DNA of 36,875 nucleotides from an uncultured Pelagibacteraceae bacterium (lineage in GTDB: Bacteria > Pseudomonadota > Alphaproteobacteria > Pelagibacterales > Pelagibacteraceae), in assembly GCA_902568875.1 (NCBI GenBank), contig CACFSG010000008.1:1-36875 (forward strand), read 5' to 3'. The notes under the pieces are model-generated. The model saw nothing but the letters and a program-made list of their open reading frames with translations. It ran no database searches and was not told where the DNA came from. Of this stretch, positions 16,412 through 24,545 are shown piece by piece. Position numbers and translations under genes: made by a program. Positions within the stretch are counted from its first letter, which is position 1, and each line of letters opens with the position of its first letter.

Positions 16412-17590
16412 ATGGGAAAGATATATACAGCTTTGGGATTAATGAGTGGAACTTCTATGGATGGGGTAGATGCATCAATTATTCAAACTGATGGAAAGTC
16501 TAAATATAACGCAATTTTAGATAAGTATTTTGAATATCCTAAAAATATCTATAAAAATTTAACAACTCTTAGAGATAAAATAAAAAGCTCAAAAGATCTA
16601 AAAAAACATCAAAAACTAATAAAATCTGTTGAAAAAGAGATAACATTTTTTCATGCTAAAGCAGTCAATGAAATTCTAAAAAAAACTAAAAAAAATGTAG
16701 ATTTTATAGGATTTCATGGCCAAACCATTTTTCATAATGAGGAAAAAAAAATATCTAAACAATTAGGCAATGGAAAACTTTTATCAAAACTAACTAAGAA
16801 AAAAGTTGTTTATGATTTTAGACATAATGATTTAAAAAATGGTGGTCGAGGAGCACCTTTAGCACCAGTTTTTCATGCTGCACTTGTAAAAAATAAAAAA
16901 ATTCCAGTACCTGTTACTATTTGGAATATAGGTGGAATAACAAATTATACTGGTATTTATAACAATAAACGTATACGTGAAAAAAAACAACACAATGAAT
17001 ATCTAACTTTAGATTCAGACAGTTATCATGAAGGATTTTATTCCTTAGATATCGGTCCTGGTAACTGTTTAATTGATCAATGGATAAGAACTAAATCTAA
17101 AGAAAAATATGACAAAGGTGGACGAATAGCAAGATCTGGAAAAATAAATAAAAAACTTTTAGATAAAGCTATATATAATTTTAAAAAAAAAGTTCGTAAA
17201 TTATCTTATGATGTTAGTGATTTTAACATATCTTTTGTAAAAGGATTATCATTAAAAGATGGAACAGCAACTTTAACAGAATATACTGCTGAACTTTTAC
17301 ATGAACATTTTGTTGATGCCATGGATGGAGCAGTAGGCAATATTTTATCTGGTGGTGGGAGAAAAAATAAAACATTAATTAAGAGTATTGAAAATAAAAT
17401 AAAAAAGATGGGAGCATTAACTGAACCATTAAAATACATTGATGATTATGGTATCGATGGTGATTTCATCGAGTCCCAAGCATTTGCTTATCTTGCAATT
17501 AGATCTTATTTAAAATTACCAATTTCTTTTCCTAATACAACAGGATGTAGAAAACCTTGTACTGGCGGCGTTATAGTTAAAAATTTTTAA
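16412..17590 (+). CDS. anmK: Anhydro-N-acetylmuramic acid kinase
   Basis: A 392-aa sugar kinase of the AnmK family. It converts 1,6-anhydro-MurNAc, released by murein turnover, to MurNAc-6-phosphate. Signatures are the ATP-phosphate loop LMSGTSMDGVDASI near the N-terminus, IGFHGQTIFHNE, DFRHNDLKNGGRGAPLAP, WNIGGITNYT, SLDIGPGNCLIDQWI and GGGRKNKTLI. It is placed next to tyrS in many proteobacteria. A peptidoglycan-recycling role fits with pbp1A nearby. The stop TAA is shared as TTAA with the convergent hydrolase. Confidence 0.95.
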   Translation: MGKIYTALGLMSGTSMDGVDASIIQTDGKSKYNAILDKYFEYPKNIYKNLTTLRDKIKSSKDLKKHQKLIKSVEKEITFFHAKAVNEILKKTKKNVDFIGFHGQTIFHNEEKKISKQLGNGKLLSKLTKKKVVYDFRHNDLKNGGRGAPLAPVFHAALVKNKKIPVPVTIWNIGGITNYTGIYNNKRIREKKQHNEYLTLDSDSYHEGFYSLDIGPGNCLIDQWIRTKSKEKYDKGGRIARSGKINKKLLDKAIYNFKKKVRKLSYDVSDFNISFVKGLSLKDGTATLTEYTAELLHEHFVDAMDGAVGNILSGGGRKNKTLIKSIENKIKKMGALTEPLKYIDDYGIDGDFIESQAFAYLAIRSYLKLPISFPNTTGCRKPCTGGVIVKNF

Positions 17591-18243
17591 TAAAGAGCTG
17601 TTTCTTTTTTTATATATTTGTCTAAGCATTTTATTAACATATTTTCATTTTTTGAGAAAAAATGATTTGCTTCAGTTACAGATTGGAATTCAACTTTAAT
17701 TCCTTTTTGAGCACTTAATCTTTTTTCTAACTCTTTTATATGTTCAATAGGTACTAGCTCATCTTTTTTTCCATAAACCATAAGTCCAGATGTTGGACAG
17801 GGTGACAAAAATGAAAAATCATAAACATTTGGTTGTGGAGAAATTACGATAAATCTATTTATTTCTGGTCGTCTCATTAATAATTGCATAGCAATTAAAG
17901 ATCCAAATGAAAACCCAGAAACCCAACATTGTGAATTATCAAAATTTTCTCTTTCTAACCAATCTAAAGCTGCAGCAGCATCAGCTAATTCACCTTGACC
18001 ATTATCAAATTCACCATCACTTTTACCAACACCTCTAAAGTTTACTCGACAAACAGAGAAATTATTTTCCATAAAAGTATGAAAAGTATCAACAACAATT
18101 TTATTATTCATTGTGCCTCCATATTGAGGATGAGGTTGCAAGACAAGAGCTATTGGTGAAGTATTTTTTTTACTTTTGAAATATTTAGCTTCAAGCCTTC
18201 CAGCTGGTCCAGGAATAAAAATTTCTAAAATTTTGTTATCCAT
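17587..18243 (-). CDS. Alpha/beta hydrolase (COG2945-like)
   Basis: A 218-aa cytoplasmic alpha/beta-hydrolase. The nucleophile elbow is GFSFGS with S112. The oxyanion side is PHPQYGGTMNNKIV, and NFRGVGKSDGEFDNGQGELADAAAALDWL is characteristic of the COG2945 group. The likely catalytic Asp is in GKKDELVP and the His in EANHFF. The substrate is unknown. The gene precedes suf clusters in some alphaproteobacteria, but it is divergent here and no functional link to Fe-S assembly is shown. A Fur-like sequence lies just upstream of its ATG. Confidence 0.85.
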   Translation of the reverse strand: MDNKILEIFIPGPAGRLEAKYFKSKKNTSPIALVLQPHPQYGGTMNNKIVVDTFHTFMENNFSVCRVNFRGVGKSDGEFDNGQGELADAAAALDWLERENFDNSQCWVSGFSFGSLIAMQLLMRRPEINRFIVISPQPNVYDFSFLSPCPTSGLMVYGKKDELVPIEHIKELEKRLSAQKGIKVEFQSVTEANHFFSKNENMLIKCLDKYIKKETALY

Positions 18244-18247
18244 TTTT

Positions 18248-18266
18248 GTTAATGATAATTATTCTC
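18248..18266. promoter_or_regulatory. Fur-box-like sequence
   Basis: A 19-bp stretch matches the classical E. coli Fur box (GATAATGATAATCATTATC) at 16 of 19 positions by my count; the core is AATGATAATTATT. It sits 5 bp upstream of the hydrolase ATG and about 110 bp upstream of iscR. It may put iron control on either gene. The match is partly helped by AT-rich composition. Confidence 0.35.
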
Positions 18267-18325
18267 AAAAAAAAATTACATTTATCATAACTGTGTCATA
18301 AAATGTTAGTTTTTTTTTGACCATG

Positions 18326-18350
18326 ATACTTGACTATTTTAGTCAGGTTT
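18326..18350 (+). promoter_or_regulatory. IscR type 1 operator overlapping the suf promoter
   Basis: A 25-bp site with arms ATACTTGACTA and TAGTCAGGT around TTT. It agrees with the E. coli IscR type 1 consensus (ATASYYGACTR-www-YAGTCRRSTAT, from memory) at 24 of 25 positions. It overlaps a TTGACT -35 element (18330-18335); TATATA at 18352-18357 (16-bp spacer) or TATATC at 18354-18359 (18-bp) can serve as -10. Holo-IscR would therefore block RNA polymerase. A ribosome site AAGGA at 18369-18373 precedes the iscR ATG. Confidence 0.8.
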
Positions 18351-18376
18351 ATATATATCGTGTAAAATAAGGATTT

Positions 18377-18802
18377 ATGAAACTTACATCTAAAGGCAGA
18401 TATGCGGTAATGGCTTTAGTAGACCTAGCGAGATTTGATAATATTAACCCAGTTTCTCTTAGGGACATTTCTTTAAGACAAGGTATTTCATTAGATTATT
18501 TAGAACAAATCTTTTCAAGATTAAGAAAAAGAGAAATAGTTCAAAGCGTAAGAGGAACTCAGGGAGGGTATGTTTTAAATAAAAAAGCTAAAGAAATAAA
18601 ACTTTCAAATATTTTTGATGCGGTCGATGAAAAAGTAAAAACTGTTAAATGTAAGAAAGAATCAAAAAAAGGTTGTAATGGCAAAACAACAAAATGTCTT
18701 ACACATAATCTTTGGGATGAACTTGATAGCCATATAAATAACTTTTTTGAGCAAAAAAGTTTAGAAGATTTGGTTAAAGATAATGCTGAAAGAAGAATTT
18801 AA
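18377..18802 (+). CDS. iscR: Rrf2-family Fe-S regulator IscR
   Basis: A 141-aa Rrf2-type repressor. The N-terminal winged helix-turn-helix ([52 protein letters not shown]) is nearly the same as in E. coli IscR. The cluster-ligand segment has C92, C100, C107 and H110, slightly wider spacing than E. coli (92, 98, 104, 107). It senses [2Fe-2S] status and should repress its own operon when clusters are plentiful. This fits the type 1 operator directly upstream. It leads the suf operon, with a 2-bp gap to sufB. RirA, another Rrf2 protein, is the main alternative; the operator sequence favours IscR. Confidence 0.92.
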
Positions 18803-18804
18803 AG

Positions 18805-20247
18805 ATGGATACTAGAGAAAAAAATATAGAAAATTTAAAAGATTATAAATATGGTTTTTCTACTGATATTGAAAATATTAGAGCTCCTAAAGGTTTAAAC
18901 GAAGATGTAATTAAGTTTATTTCAAATATTAAAAAAGAACCAAAATGGATGCTAGATTTTAGGTTAAAAGCTTTTAAAAGATTTAAACAATTAAAAGAAC
19001 CTAGTTGGCAAAAACCGAAATATCCAAAAATTGATTATCAAGACTTATATTACTATTCAGCTCCTAAAAGCATAAAAGACAAACCAAAAAGTCTTGATGA
19101 GCTTGATCCTAAACTTTTAGAAACTTATAAAAAACTAGGTATTCCTTTACAAGAACAAGAAAGATTAAATGGTATAGCTGTTGATGCAGTTTTTGATTCA
19201 GTTTCTGTTGCAACAACTTTTAAAGAGGAATTAACCAAACAAGGAATAATTTTTTGTTCAATGTCAGAAGCAATACAAAAACATCCTGAGCTAGTAAAAA
19301 AATATCTTGGGACTGTGATACCAATCACTGATCATTTTTTTGCTACACTTAATTCAGCAGTATTTACTGATGGCTCTTTTGTTTATATACCCAAAGGTAT
19401 TAGATGCCCGATGGAACTATCAACTTATTTTAGAATTAATGCATCTGAAACAGGTCAGTTTGAAAGAACTCTTATTATTGCCGATAAAGGAAGTTATGTG
19501 AGTTATTTAGAAGGATGTACAGCTCCAATGAGAGATGAAAACCAATTACATGCCGCTAATGTAGAATTAATTGCACTGGATGATGCAGAGATTAAGTATT
19601 CAACAGTACAAAATTGGTATCCAGGTGATGAAAATGGTAAAGGTGGAATTTATAACTTTGTTACTAAAAGAGGATTATGTAAAGGAAAGAATTCTAAAAT
19701 TTCTTGGACACAAGTAGAGACTGGATCAGCTATAACCTGGAAGTATCCAAGTTGTATTTTAAAAGGTGATAACTCTATTGGAGAGTTTTACTCAATAGCA
19801 ATTACAAATAATTATCAAAAAGCAGATACTGGAACAAAAATGATTCATTTAGGAAAAAATACTAAAAGCAAAATTATTTCAAAAGGCATAAGTGCTGGAC
19901 ATTCAGATATGACTTATAGAGGACTTGTGGATATTAATTCTAAAGCAAAAAATTCAAGTAATTATACTCAATGTGACTCTTTATTAATGGGAAATAAATG
20001 TGGAGCTCATACTGTTCCTTATATTAAAAATAAAAACTTTGACTCAAATATAGCTCATGAAGCAACTACATCTAAAATAAGCGAAGAACAATTACATTAT
20101 TGTCAACAAAGAGGGCTAAATTCAGAGGAAGCTGTTGGACTAATTGTTAATGGATTTTGCAAAGAAGTTCTTCAGCAATTACCAATGGAGTTTGCAGTCG
20201 AGGCACAAAAACTTGTAGGTATTAGTTTAGAGGGGAGTGTAGGTTAA
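18805..20247 (+). CDS. sufB: Fe-S cluster assembly scaffold SufB
   Basis: A 480-aa SufB, the scaffold subunit of the SufBC2D complex on which Fe-S clusters are built. Landmarks are the N-terminal [22 protein letters not shown], the beta-helix core ([31 protein letters not shown]), and the C-terminal [16 protein letters not shown], whose cysteine matches the E. coli cluster and sulfur-accepting Cys405. [23 protein letters not shown] closes the protein. Its stop is directly adjacent to the sufC start (TTAATG overlap). Confidence 0.98.
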
Positions 20248-20981
20248 TGCTTAAGATAAATAATTTGAATGCAAATATTGACAATAGATCAATTTTAAAA
20301 GGTTTTTCATTAAATATTAATCCAGGCGAGGTACATGCAATTATGGGTCCTAATGGATCTGGTAAGAGCACACTATCTAATATTTTGTCAGGTAAAAAAG
20401 GTTATGAAATTTCTGGCGAGATTTTATTCGAAAATAAAAATTTATTTGATCTTGAAACTGAAGAAAGAGCTCATAAAGGAATATTTTTAGCATTCCAATA
20501 TCCTTTAGAGATTCCTGGAGTGAACACAAATATTTTTCTAAAAACTTCATTAAATGCTGTCAGAAAAGCTAGAGGAGAAAAAGAACTTGATGCTATTGAA
20601 TTTCTTAAACTTGTAAAAGAAAAAGCTAAGAAATTAAAATTTGATGAAGAAAAATTAAGTAGACAATTAAATGTTGGTTTTTCTGGAGGTGAAAAAAAGA
20701 AAAATGAAATTTTACAAATGTCTATATTAGCTCCTAAATTATCAATTTTAGATGAAACGGACTCAGGGTTAGATATAGATGCATTGAAGATAGTTGCTGA
20801 TGGAGTAAACACATTAAGAAATAAAGAAAATTCATTTTTAATTATAACTCATTATCAAAGACTATTGAATTATATTGAACCAGATTATGTACATGTTCTA
20901 ATGAATGGAAAAATAATTAAATCTGGTGGTCCAGAGTTAGCATTAGAGTTAGAAAAAAAAGGATACAAAAATTTTAATTAA
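20247..20981 (+). CDS. sufC: Fe-S assembly ATPase SufC
   Basis: A 244-aa ABC-type ATPase of the SufBCD complex. Walker A is GPNGSGKST (residues 35-43), the Q-loop [11 protein letters not shown], the signature [11 protein letters not shown] (the family usually has LSGGEKKRNEI), Walker B plus D-loop [16 protein letters not shown], and the switch His is in ITHYQRLL. It drives conformational changes that open the SufB-SufD interface. It overlaps sufB by one base and abuts sufD. Confidence 0.98.
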
Positions 20982-22226
20982 ATGACTGAGCAAATTAAAA
21001 TAGATTTTGAAAAAACAATAAAAACTTCAGAGTTATCAAAGGCAGATGCCAAGTTAAAAAAACAATTTTTGAAAAAATTTATTAAAAATGGTTTTCCAAG
21101 TAGAAAATTGGAAAATTGGAAATTTTCAGACATAAATCAAATTATACAAAAAAATATCGGAGAATTAAGTTTCTATAACGATTATTCATCATCAAATAAA
21201 ATTGATACATCAATTTTTGTTGATGGATTAGAACATAATAAGATTGTTTTTATAAATGGTAGATTGGAAAAAATTGACTTTAGTTATGAAGATAAGAATA
21301 AGGTTGAAATAAATGAAAGCTCTAATTTTAAAAATAATCTAGAAAATAATAATTCATTAACTGATTTAAATAGTGCATTTACAAATAAAAGTTACATAAT
21401 ATTAATTAAAAAAGATTATTATCTCAAAAAACCTTTAATTGTTTATCATTCAACAAATAATAAGATTAAATCAAAAAATATTAATTTGAGACTAGATTTT
21501 CAATTAGAGCAAAATAGCTCTTTAAGATTAATTGATTTTTTTAGTCATACTTCAAAAAAAAATTTTATTAATGTTTTTAATAATTTTGACTTAAAAAAAG
21601 ATGCAATTTTAAAAAATTATAAAATAGATAATTTACAAAATGAAAATATTAAATATTCTTTCAATAATATTGATCAAGATGAAAACAGTATTTCCGAAAC
21701 ATTTATTTTGTCTTGTGGATCTAATTTTTTAAAAAATGAAGTTATTTGTAATTTAAATGGCAAATATTCATCAGCATTTGTGAATGGTATTTTTTCATTA
21801 ATGAATAGACAACAACATGAAATTAGAACAATAATTAATCATCTTGTTGAAAATACAAAAAGTTATCAGTTAATTAAAAGTGTTCTTGGAAAAGAGTCTA
21901 AAGCTGTATATCAAGGAAAAATATTTGTTAACTCAGAAGCTCAAAAAACTGATGGTTATCAATTAAGTAAAGCAATATTGTTGGATAAGACATCAGAATT
22001 TAATGCCAAACCTGAATTAGAAATTTATGCAGATGATGTAAAATGTTCTCATGGATCTGCATCTGGAAGCTTAAATGAAAACTCAATATTTTATTTGATG
22101 TCTAGAGGGCTTAACTATCAACAATCTAAAGAATTGCTAATTAATGGATTTATACTCGAGGTAATTGAAAAAATTACTGACTCGGAAATAAAAAACTTAA
22201 TTAAGAATATAATTGAATTAAAATAA
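20982..22226 (+). CDS. sufD: Fe-S assembly protein SufD
   Basis: A 414-aa SufD, the second scaffold of SufBC2D. The N-terminus contains the family pattern GFPSRKLENWKFSDI. The beta-helix is more divergent and very Lys/Asn/Ile-rich. The conserved C-terminal part is VYQGKIFVNSEAQKTDGYQL followed by DDVKCSHGSASGSL, with the His corresponding to the Fe-binding His360 of E. coli SufD. It starts immediately after the sufC stop and overlaps sufS by one base (TAATG). Confidence 0.96.
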   Translation: MTEQIKIDFEKTIKTSELSKADAKLKKQFLKKFIKNGFPSRKLENWKFSDINQIIQKNIGELSFYNDYSSSNKIDTSIFVDGLEHNKIVFINGRLEKIDFSYEDKNKVEINESSNFKNNLENNNSLTDLNSAFTNKSYIILIKKDYYLKKPLIVYHSTNNKIKSKNINLRLDFQLEQNSSLRLIDFFSHTSKKNFINVFNNFDLKKDAILKNYKIDNLQNENIKYSFNNIDQDENSISETFILSCGSNFLKNEVICNLNGKYSSAFVNGIFSLMNRQQHEIRTIINHLVENTKSYQLIKSVLGKESKAVYQGKIFVNSEAQKTDGYQLSKAILLDKTSEFNAKPELEIYADDVKCSHGSASGSLNENSIFYLMSRGLNYQQSKELLINGFILEVIEKITDSEIKNLIKNIIELK

Positions 22227-23446
22227 TGAATATAGATACTATTAAAAAAGAATTTCCGATTTTTGATAATAAAATTCAAAACAATGATTTGGTATATTTA
22301 GATAGTGCTAATTCATCTCAAAAACCTAAAGTTGTTATTGATAAAATTAGTGAGTTTTATACAAAACAATTTTCCAATGTAGGGAGAAGCGTTCATTATT
22401 TAGCTGTTGCAGCTACAAATTTATATGAAAATACAAGATCTTCAGTCCAAAAATATATTAATGCAAAAGATAAAAATGAGATTGTATTTACAAAAGGTGC
22501 AACAGAGGCACTTAATCTAGTTGCAAATACTTTAGGTCAAAAATATTTAGAAGAGGGTGATGAAATTTTATTAACAGAATTGGAACATCATTCTAATTAT
22601 GTACCCTGGCACTATTTAAGAAAATCTAAAAACATCAAGATTAATTTTGCTGAAATTAATGAGGATGGTGAAGTGCCTATTGAAAATATTGAAAAAAAAA
22701 TAACTCTAAAGACAAAAGTTATAGCTATTAATCATTTATCTAATGTTACTGGTGCAATATTGCCAATTAAAGAAATAACAGAACTTGCTCATTCCAAAGG
22801 AATTATTGTCGTAGTTGATGGCTGTCAAGGAGGGCCACATTTAAAACTAGATATGCAAGATCTAGATTGTGATTTTTATGCAATTTCTTGTCATAAAATG
22901 TATGGACCAACAGGACTTGGAATTTTGTATGGAAAAAAGAAATGGTTAGAAGAGTTACCTCCATATCAGGGTGGAGGTGGAATGATCAAAGAGGTTAAAA
23001 AAGATAGAATTACTTATGGAGATTTACCAAATAAATATGAAGCAGGAACAATGGCTACAGCACAGGTAATAGCATTTGATCAATCAATTAAATTTTTAGA
23101 AAGTATTGGAATTGAAAATATAATAAAACATGAAAAAGAATTAATTCAGTATGGACAAGAAATTTTAAGAAAAAATAACTCTGTCAAATTAATTGGTAAT
23201 CCAAAAAATAAAGGTGGAGTTTTATCATTTACTATTCAAGGTGTGCATCCACATGATATAGCAACTATTTTAGATGAAGATGGTATTGCAATTAGAGCAG
23301 GACATCATTGTTGTCAAATATTACATGACAAACTTAAAATTTCAGCAAGTGCAAGAGCTTCAATTGGTGTCTATAATATTAAAAGTGATTTTGACCAATT
23401 AAATGAGTCAATAAATAAATGTAAAAAAATTTTTGATTTAAGATGA
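22226..23446 (+). CDS. sufS: Cysteine desulfurase SufS
   Basis: A 406-aa type II (group II) PLP cysteine desulfurase that supplies persulfide sulfur to the SUF scaffold. PLP is bound by K224 in SCHKMYGPTG. The active-site loop is IRAGHHCCQIL, with catalytic C362 followed directly by a second cysteine C363. NHLSNVTGAILP and YEAGTMATAQ are typical. The usual VDGAQ is VDGCQ here. It overlaps sufU by 4 bp (ATGA), matching their partnership in sulfur transfer. Confidence 0.97.
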   Translation: MNIDTIKKEFPIFDNKIQNNDLVYLDSANSSQKPKVVIDKISEFYTKQFSNVGRSVHYLAVAATNLYENTRSSVQKYINAKDKNEIVFTKGATEALNLVANTLGQKYLEEGDEILLTELEHHSNYVPWHYLRKSKNIKINFAEINEDGEVPIENIEKKITLKTKVIAINHLSNVTGAILPIKEITELAHSKGIIVVVDGCQGGPHLKLDMQDLDCDFYAISCHKMYGPTGLGILYGKKKWLEELPPYQGGGGMIKEVKKDRITYGDLPNKYEAGTMATAQVIAFDQSIKFLESIGIENIIKHEKELIQYGQEILRKNNSVKLIGNPKNKGGVLSFTIQGVHPHDIATILDEDGIAIRAGHHCCQILHDKLKISASARASIGVYNIKSDFDQLNESINKCKKIFDLR

Positions 23447-23907
23447 ATTTAAAAGAACTATATCAAGAAATAATTTTAGAACATGGTAAAAATCCAAGAA
23501 ATTTAAGGAAGACTGAAAATTTTAACAAAGATGCTAAAGGAAACAATCCTTTATGTGGAGATATTGTACATGTGTATTTAAAATTAAATGAACAAAAAAA
23601 AGTAGAAGATATATCATTTGAAGGAAGTGGTTGTGCCATTTCAATGGCATCTGCTTCAATTATGACAGATTTAATAAAAGGTAAAAGTGATAACGAAGCT
23701 AAAGAAATTATAGAAGATTTTTTGGGAATGATAAAAGAAAACCCTGAGCTTAAATCTAACATATTAAAAGAAGATGATAAAACAAAACTGATGTGTTTAT
23801 CAGGAGTTAAACAATATCCAATGAGAGTTAAATGTGCTACCTTATCATGGCATACTTTAATTTCAGCAATGGAAAATGATGGAAAAGAGGTTAGTACAGA
23901 AAGTTAA
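23443..23907 (+). CDS. sufU: SufU-type sulfurtransferase / scaffold
   Basis: A 154-aa SufU/IscU-like protein that accepts sulfur from SufS by zinc-ligand swapping. Ligands are C38 and D40 (PLCGDIV), C64 (GSGCAISMASAS) and C131 (VKCATLSWHTL). The insertion between helices, of about 20 residues, separates SufU from IscU. It replaces SufE, which is not in this operon. The first ATG gives the standard N-terminus MNLKELYQEIILEHGKNPRN. It is followed 6 bp later by the SufT-like gene. Confidence 0.95.
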   Translation: MNLKELYQEIILEHGKNPRNLRKTENFNKDAKGNNPLCGDIVHVYLKLNEQKKVEDISFEGSGCAISMASASIMTDLIKGKSDNEAKEIIEDFLGMIKENPELKSNILKEDDKTKLMCLSGVKQYPMRVKCATLSWHTLISAMENDGKEVSTES

Positions 23908-23913
23908 CATTTT

Positions 23914-24210
23914 ATGAAGGTTAAAGAAAAAATAATTGATGAAATAAGAAAGATTTACGATCCAGAATTACCAGTAAATATTTATGAACTTGGTTTAATT
24001 TATGATATTAAAGTAATTGGAAAAAAAGCTGAAATTAAAATGACATTAACTACACCAAATTGTCCTGTTGCAGAAAGCTTACCAAAAGAAGTTAAAGAAA
24101 GTGCGATGCAAGTAGAGGAAATAGATGATGTTGATTTAGAATTAGTTTGGGATCCTCCTTGGACAAAAGATATGATGTCAGATGCAGCAAAATTGGAGTT
24201 AAATTTATAA
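23914..24210 (+). CDS. sufT: SufT-like MIP18/DUF59 protein
   Basis: A 98-aa MIP18-family (DUF59) protein. Conserved features are DPELPVNIYELGLIYDI, the TLTTPNCPVAESLP segment with the single conserved cysteine, and VWDPPWTKDMMSDAAKLEL at the C-terminus. SufT proteins help maturation of Fe-S enzymes, possibly as carriers. Placement between sufU and sufA in the operon is typical in alphaproteobacteria. Its TAA overlaps the sufA ATG (TAATG at 24208-24212). Confidence 0.92.
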   Translation: MKVKEKIIDEIRKIYDPELPVNIYELGLIYDIKVIGKKAEIKMTLTTPNCPVAESLPKEVKESAMQVEEIDDVDLELVWDPPWTKDMMSDAAKLELNL

Positions 24211-24545
24211 TGAATCCCATTATTAAATTAAGTGATAATGCAGCAAATAGAATAAAAGAAATAATGTCTAGTGCTAAAAAAGATTCTCTAGGTGTTAGAG
24301 TTTCAATTAAATCTGGTGGTTGTGCAGGCATGTCTTATGTTATGGAGTACTTAAAAGAAGTTAATCCAAATGATGAAATTATTAAGGATAAAGGTGTAAA
24401 AGTTTATATAGATTCAGCAGCAGTAATGTATTTATTAGGTACAGAAATGGATTATAAAAAAGGGGAGCTTTCCTCTTCTTTTGTATTTAATAATCCGAAT
24501 GAAACTGAGCGATGCGGCTGCGGAGAGTCATTTAAAACTGATTAA
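24210..24545 (+). CDS. sufA: A-type Fe-S carrier SufA/IscA
   Basis: A 111-aa HesB/IscA-family carrier. The cluster-ligating cysteines are C38 (SGGCAGMSY) and C102, C104 (ERCGCGES). It receives clusters from SufBCD and passes them to apo-proteins. The frame is open back to an ATG at 24147, but that start would add 21 unrelated residues inside sufT. ATG 24210 overlaps the sufT stop and gives the usual N-terminus (MNPIIKLSDNAANRIKEI). It is the last gene of the suf operon. Confidence 0.95.
   Translation: MNPIIKLSDNAANRIKEIMSSAKKDSLGVRVSIKSGGCAGMSYVMEYLKEVNPNDEIIKDKGVKVYIDSAAVMYLLGTEMDYKKGELSSSFVFNNPNETERCGCGESFKTD

Follow-up and report, generated by a model that had tools for sequence, protein, structure and literature searches.

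Among the described systems, the iscRSUA operon of Escherichia coli shares with the SAR11 locus analysed here an operator of the same 25-bp class, a regulator gene in first position of an Fe-S assembly operon, and a regulator with Cys3-His ligands and the residues E43 and Q44. The two differ in that the SAR11 gene row codes for SUF components and the E. coli row for iscS-iscU-iscA; the cysteine ligands are spaced x5/x5 in E. coli IscR and x7/x6 in SAR11 IscR, residue 40 of the SAR11 protein is not serine, and E. coli iscR is preceded by three IscR sites (PMC3899308), compared with one detectable site in SAR11. The iscR-iscS-suf operon of Caulobacter crescentus is likewise a single iscR-led Fe-S operon, induced by iron limitation and repressed by IscR (PMC3751524; PMC11475020); its induction was reported to be independent of Fur (PMC3751524), and control by IscR was shown later (PMC11475020). 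In contrast to SAR11, the Caulobacter operon also contains iscS, the IscR regulon is large, with an estimated 302 genes (PMC11475020), the type I motif derived by the authors is different, and they describe the isc site as matching their type II motif weakly. For the region upstream of Caulobacter iscR, an IscR site had been predicted in 2006 (Rodionov 2006, doi 10.1371/journal.pcbi.0020163, as cited in PMC3751524), and the same study is cited for predicted alphaproteobacterial IscR sites in PMC4618611. In Rhodobacter sphaeroides, iscR is the first gene of an isc-suf operon and codes for a cluster-bound repressor, as in the SAR11 model developed below; unlike SAR11 IscR, this protein ligates its cluster by a single cysteine, and its targets are described by way of a 19-bp Iron-Rhodo-box, with no use of the term "type 1" (PMC4618611).

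The type 1 operator and the iscR-suf operon

Positions 18326 to 18350 (forward strand) of the window, i.e., of the entire analysed stretch of 36,875 bp, are occupied by ATACTTGACTATTTTAGTCAGGTTT, a near-perfect type 1 operator that is real and strongly conserved and that is predicted to be recognized by IscR. Its arms, ACTTGACTA and TAGTCAGGT, are separated by three bases. Scored against the type 1 consensus published for E. coli, ATASYYGACTRWWWYAGTCRRSTAT, a partial palindrome of 25 bp (PMC3899308), the site matches at 24 of 25 positions, with T for A at 18349 as the sole mismatch; the E. coli K-12 iscR promoter reaches 24 in the same motif scan. When up to three mismatches were permitted, 18326 to 18350 was the only match in the window (100 dinucleotide shuffles gave none) and in the assembly from which the window derives (854,767 bp, rated 66.6% complete). 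A first-order Markov model built from the window predicts approximately 1e-4 matches with at most one mismatch in 854,767 bp on both strands, and approximately 2e-8 within the 133-bp gap that houses the operator.

This gap separates a divergent alpha/beta hydrolase gene (17587 to 18243, reverse strand), a conserved neighbor of the operator in the class, from iscR (18377 to 18802, forward strand), and the operator ends 26 bp before the latter. The row continues on the forward strand with sufB (18805 to 20247; NF008773), sufC (20247 to 20981; TIGR01978), sufD (20982 to 22226; TIGR01981 with 219.3 bits, just under the cut-off of 222), the cysteine desulfurase gene sufS (22226 to 23446; TIGR01979), sufU (23443 to 23907; TIGR01994), a gene for a SUF-associated, PaaD/SufT-like protein (23914 to 24210; TIGR02945 with 137.1 bits vs. 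a cut-off of 143.4), and a sufA-like A-type carrier gene (24147 to 24545; TIGR00049 above cut-off, TIGR01997 SufA with 130.8 vs. 136.2 bits); sufB, sufC, sufS, and sufU match their profiles above cut-off. The TTG start of the sufA-like gene at 24147 overlaps the preceding gene, and the recognizable domain starts at residue 26; the true start is probably located further downstream. Intergenic gaps in the row do not exceed 6 bp; additional promoters may be located inside the genes. The original prediction, made from the nucleotide sequence, had described a site with a 24 of 25 fit to the type 1 consensus in front of a SAR11-like suf operon headed by iscR; the scan against the published consensus confirmed the fit, the family profile matches bear out the gene order, and the nearest named IscR relatives are Pelagibacteraceae records with up to 92% identity.

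The operator tracks the first gene of the operon and is lost together with iscR

Two samples of loci were compared. The first comprises 104 SAR11-type iscR loci, 24 from the genus of the window (window included) and 80 from named records titled Pelagibacteraceae, Pelagibacterales, or Candidatus Pelagibacter; the collections overlap, and 103 of the upstream stretches are distinct. The second comprises 127 loci from the class outside the genus of the window (130 loci minus that of E. coli, L180, and two of the same genus, L185 and L186), in which as much as 1.5 kb ahead of iscR was searched; they come from 157 genomes with a match, mostly the better-scoring ones, with lower-scoring, unlisted, and a few skipped matches falling outside the sample. 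The labels of kinship at the level of class, family, and genus were assigned by the search tool, and their equation with Alphaproteobacteria and Pelagibacteraceae is inferred from the named IscR relatives.

All 104 SAR11-type loci carry an operator that scores 21 to 25 of 25 and ends 20 to 32 bp before iscR, even as IscR identity across these loci falls to 63%; conservation upstream of iscR in related genomes, on which the original prediction had staked its claim, is thereby established. Among 61 genomes (that of the window included), iscR was found in 43, and a site with at most three mismatches accompanies it in 42 of these; the remaining genome (G025) has a site with four mismatches at the right place. 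With the same tolerance, the 61 genomes contain 44 matching places, vs. eight for the reversed motif; the two located away from iscR (one on contig 3 of G026, one in G028, where iscR was not found) are probably due to chance. Two genomes rated 100% complete (G012 and G037) contain exactly one site each. Four genomes of the same genus appear without iscR; three of them (G009, G027, and G031) are also without sufB, and in the fourth (G033) the contig begins inside sufD. A loss of iscR in these four genomes was considered and rejected, as they look like assembly gaps from which this stretch of the locus is missing.

Loci of the sister family, which belongs to the same order, reach no more than 16 to 17 of 25 within 300 bp of iscR (16 of 16 loci), because cysE precedes iscR there; the operator is found instead before cysE, the first gene, and beside the same divergent hydrolase (19 of 19 loci). 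The operator thus tracks the first gene of the operon. A second contrast comes from another genus of the family to which the window belongs, represented by two genomes of one contig each (G148, 100% complete; G397, 99% complete). Both have kept sufB (80 to 81% identity), sufC, and the hydrolase gene, the latter directly facing sufB (L314 and L315). In these two genomes iscR was not found at E <= 1, and operator scores over the 4.4-kb stretch do not exceed 18, compared with up to 17 for the reversed control. Regulator and operator were lost together in this sister genus (two of two finished genomes), which slightly raises confidence in autoregulation by IscR and in the more far-reaching reading given below; a genus without either also provides a natural contrast to the iscR-bearing SAR11 bacteria.

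The regulator, the promoter, and the response to iron

The regulator (141 aa) is a member of the Rrf2 family (E = 7.7e-37). TIGR02010, the IscR equivalog profile, is its best NCBIfam match, yet with 177.3 bits it remains under the cut-off of 207.55; the broader rrf2_super profile is exceeded (139.8 vs. 73.3). The protein is therefore filed as an IscR-type Rrf2 regulator of the alphaproteobacterial branch, and not as a called member of TIGR02010. The best-matching solved structures (4hf0, 4hf1, 4chu, and 4hf2) are all named IscR. The cluster ligands, Cys3-His in a C-x7-C-x6-C-[LIVS]TH motif (C-x7-C-x6-CLTH in the window), are present in all 104 SAR11-type proteins; the general C..C..C..H pattern is found in 126 of the 127 class proteins. 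All 104 SAR11-type proteins also have a YLEQ or FLEQ motif with E43 and Q44, and it is E43 that prevents apo-IscR from using type 1 sites (PMC3899308). At a type 2 site, S40, Y41, E43, Q44, and R59 are listed as critical for E. coli IscR (PMC11475020). Residue 40 in the recognition helix is D, L, or V in all 104 SAR11-type proteins; by motif, the serine of E. coli is present in 15 of the 16 proteins from the sister family and in 101 of the 127 from the class. As a separate observation, residue 59 is lysine in 14 of 16 sister-family proteins.

The hexamer TTGACT at 18330 to 18335 (forward strand), within the left operator half, is the probable -35 box, and TATATA at 18352 to 18357 (forward strand), following a 16-nt spacer, the probable -10 box. 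TTGAC recurs in all 104 SAR11-type relatives and each column of TATAWA in 99 to 104 of them; the best-scoring spacer is 16 nt in 94 loci and 18 nt in 10. On this basis the proposal that the operator overlaps a -35 box ahead of iscR is plausible. As a caveat, the conservation of TTGAC is no independent proof of a -35 box, as these bases also belong to the operator; a generic promoter scan did not include the TTGACT/TATATA pair among its calls, and since a spacer test on 82 class loci gave no peak at 16 to 18 nt, the overlap is argued for SAR11 only.

Given the sequence, position, and conservation of the site, its tracking of the first gene, its joint loss with iscR, and the ligand residues of the protein, 18326 to 18350 is very probably the autoregulatory operator of an alphaproteobacterial IscR, through which holo-IscR would repress a single operon by feedback. 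When clusters are plentiful, [2Fe-2S]-IscR dimers would occupy 18326 to 18350 and cover the presumed -35 box and spacer, so that the promoter of iscR-sufBCDS-sufU-(SUF-associated)-sufA would be sterically closed to RNA polymerase. Under a shortage of iron or after a loss of clusters, IscR without its cluster would leave the type 1 site, and the operon would be derepressed. Binding, cluster dependence, promoter position, and repression are the predicted elements of this model. Weighing against it are the TIGR02010 score under the cut-off, the replaced residue 40, a second conserved block in the gap, the class loci that score in the range of the control, the scarcity of the near-perfect form across the class, and, in P. 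ubique, the absence of a rise in Suf protein and the P value of the regulator gene, the last four described below.

Expression data from Candidatus Pelagibacter ubique bear on it. The genes SAR11_0738 to SAR11_0745 are annotated as a regulator, sufB, sufC, sufD, csdB, a NifU-like gene, paaD, and hesB (PMC2864753), the same order as the eight genes in the window, and from this gene order we infer that SAR11_0738 is the orthologue of the iscR studied here. Under iron limitation the eight transcripts increased 1.76-, 2.00-, 1.80-, 2.29-, 2.44-, 2.24-, 2.00-, and 1.95-fold, respectively, with P = 0.062 for the regulator gene's own change; mRNA increased and Suf protein did not (PMC2864753). These arrays fit derepression without distinguishing IscR from Fur or Irr as its cause. 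SAR11 bacteria face very scarce iron with few regulators, and one conserved operator through which Fe-S status would act back on the suf operon offers a simple, testable reading of such iron-limitation arrays.

Usually only one operator is detectable per SAR11 genome, which gives IscR the appearance of a feedback regulator dedicated to the operon that encodes it. A more far-reaching reading, that SAR11 IscR has shrunk from a global regulator of two site types to a one-operator feedback switch, with regulator and operator co-lost in one genus, is tentative and on balance doubtful; it draws on the single type 1 site, the lack of a type 2 excess, the replacement of S40, and the joint loss. With up to three mismatches, the type 2 motif gave 29 matches in the 61 genomes vs. 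21 for the reversed control, which is no clear excess, and none of them in the assembly of the window. The replacement of S40 has possibly removed type 2 binding. What is new is modest: one site per genome, a changed residue 40 in the recognition helix, and the co-loss of regulator and operator. The 2006 compilation of predicted sites may, reportedly, have listed one for Pelagibacter. A literature search returned nothing related on IscR in Pelagibacter or SAR11, and none for "IscR-box" together with alpha-proteobacteria, within a coverage that excluded Rodionov 2006.

The alternative that survives best assigns the iron response mainly to a Fur- or Irr-type regulator acting through an upstream block, with IscR in a secondary role. 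The block, at 18248 to 18318, consists of TGATWATTATTCTCA, an A tract, a stretch whose center varies, and a T tract, and its mean modal fraction across the 103 distinct SAR11-type upstream stretches is 0.876, compared to 0.907 for the operator; being nearly as conserved as the operator, it implies that other regulators may act in the gap between hydrolase and iscR. It includes an inverted repeat of the form TGA-N9-TCA, TGATAATTATTCTCA, at 18253 to 18267, which by eye we take to be Fur/RirA-like; the block is possibly the promoter of the divergent hydrolase gene combined with a Fur-like box. A 17-bp motif, TTGATWATTATTCTCAA, has 384 matches with at most two mismatches in 41 genomes, vs. 128 for the reversed control, and P. 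ubique encodes both Fur and Irr (PMC2864753). Against these points, the inverted repeat lies 59 to 73 bp upstream of the operator and only 10 to 24 bp from the hydrolase start, so that it more likely serves the hydrolase gene; the sister family has no room for the repeat, with 13 to 17 bp between hydrolase and operator in the loci inspected; and the iron response of the matching Caulobacter operon is independent of Fur (PMC3751524). Primary control by Fur or Irr is accordingly considered improbable, and autoregulation by IscR is the preferred reading. The 29-bp middle stretch of the block is matched once in each of 13 genomes out of 41; in the six of these for which the position of iscR is known, the match is at this locus. 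An RNA function of the block was considered and rejected: Rfam gave no match at E <= 1, and a single RNAalifold run with 93 variants produced no consensus fold for either strand.

Distribution across the class and origin of the arrangement

A survey of 386 genomes across the class with at most two mismatches located the site in 31, three of them from the genus of the window; the reversed motif gave none. One genome with the site (G243) yielded no locus for inspection. Among the 29 loci inspected besides that of the window, the row next to the site includes an iscR or Rrf2 gene in 23, is a hydrolase-cysE-desulfurase row with no detected iscR in one, and includes a class-V, desulfurase-like aminotransferase gene in one, a sigma-70-family gene in two, and nothing recognized in two. 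In the 127 class loci, operator scores of at least 20 occur in 67 (control, none) and of at least 19 in 88 (control, six); the 39 loci that score 16 to 18 do no better than the control. In 114 of the 120 hydrolase-bearing loci, the best match lies between the hydrolase gene and the operon, although this gap averages only approximately 17% of the 1.5 kb, and cysE precedes iscR in 68 of the 127. It appears from these comparisons that the arrangement of a divergent hydrolase, an operator, (cysE)-iscR, and then isc/suf genes is ancestral in the class, that the operator has been lost or has degenerated in part of the class, and that the arrangement was kept in most SAR11 bacteria examined.

This distribution runs counter to the original prediction of a gammaproteobacterial type of autoregulation, specially applied to SUF: the same operator and neighborhood recur across the class, so that the label "gammaproteobacterial-type" is unwarranted, and the notion of type 1 IscR control as a gammaproteobacterial peculiarity is corrected. 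Control of SUF instead of ISC does not set SAR11 apart either, as both Caulobacter (PMC11475020; PMC3751524) and Rhodobacter (PMC4618611) have documented iscR-led, IscR-controlled operons of mixed isc-suf content. That SAR11 acquired iscR and operator laterally from a gammaproteobacterium merits very little credence: the SAR11 motif is indeed closer to the E. coli consensus than are most of the GC-rich sites in the class, but AT-rich genomes presumably yield a close match more easily, the consensus center being AT; moreover, the divergent hydrolase, cysE, and iscR form the same neighborhood in the sister family and the class, and the C-x7-C-x6-C ligand spacing is that of 104 of the 127 class proteins, in contrast to C-x5-C-x5-C in E. 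coli. It is very improbable that the palindrome is no more than part of a promoter or terminator with a chance resemblance to an operator, even though TTGAC is both half-site and -35-like and a promoter/terminator scan flagged the palindrome with its T-rich tail as terminator-like, for only about 1e-4 such matches are expected per genome, conservation extends to both half-sites, and thus to the right one, which lies downstream of any -35 box, the element recurs at the same place in the class with a control of zero at scores of at least 20, and it is missing where iscR is missing.

Two class loci (L163 and L166) have a type 1-like site at 1501 to 1525, between a sigma-70-family gene and a pseudouridine synthase gene; by size and domains, the sigma-70-family gene is presumably RpoH-like. 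As Caulobacter IscR is reported to bind at rpoH (PMC11475020), this site may be a second conserved IscR target. The alpha/beta hydrolase gene, for its part, is found no farther than 1.5 kb upstream of iscR in 120 of the 127 class loci and adjoins sufB even where iscR is absent; this neighborhood suggests an unrecognized tie of the hydrolase to Fe-S assembly.
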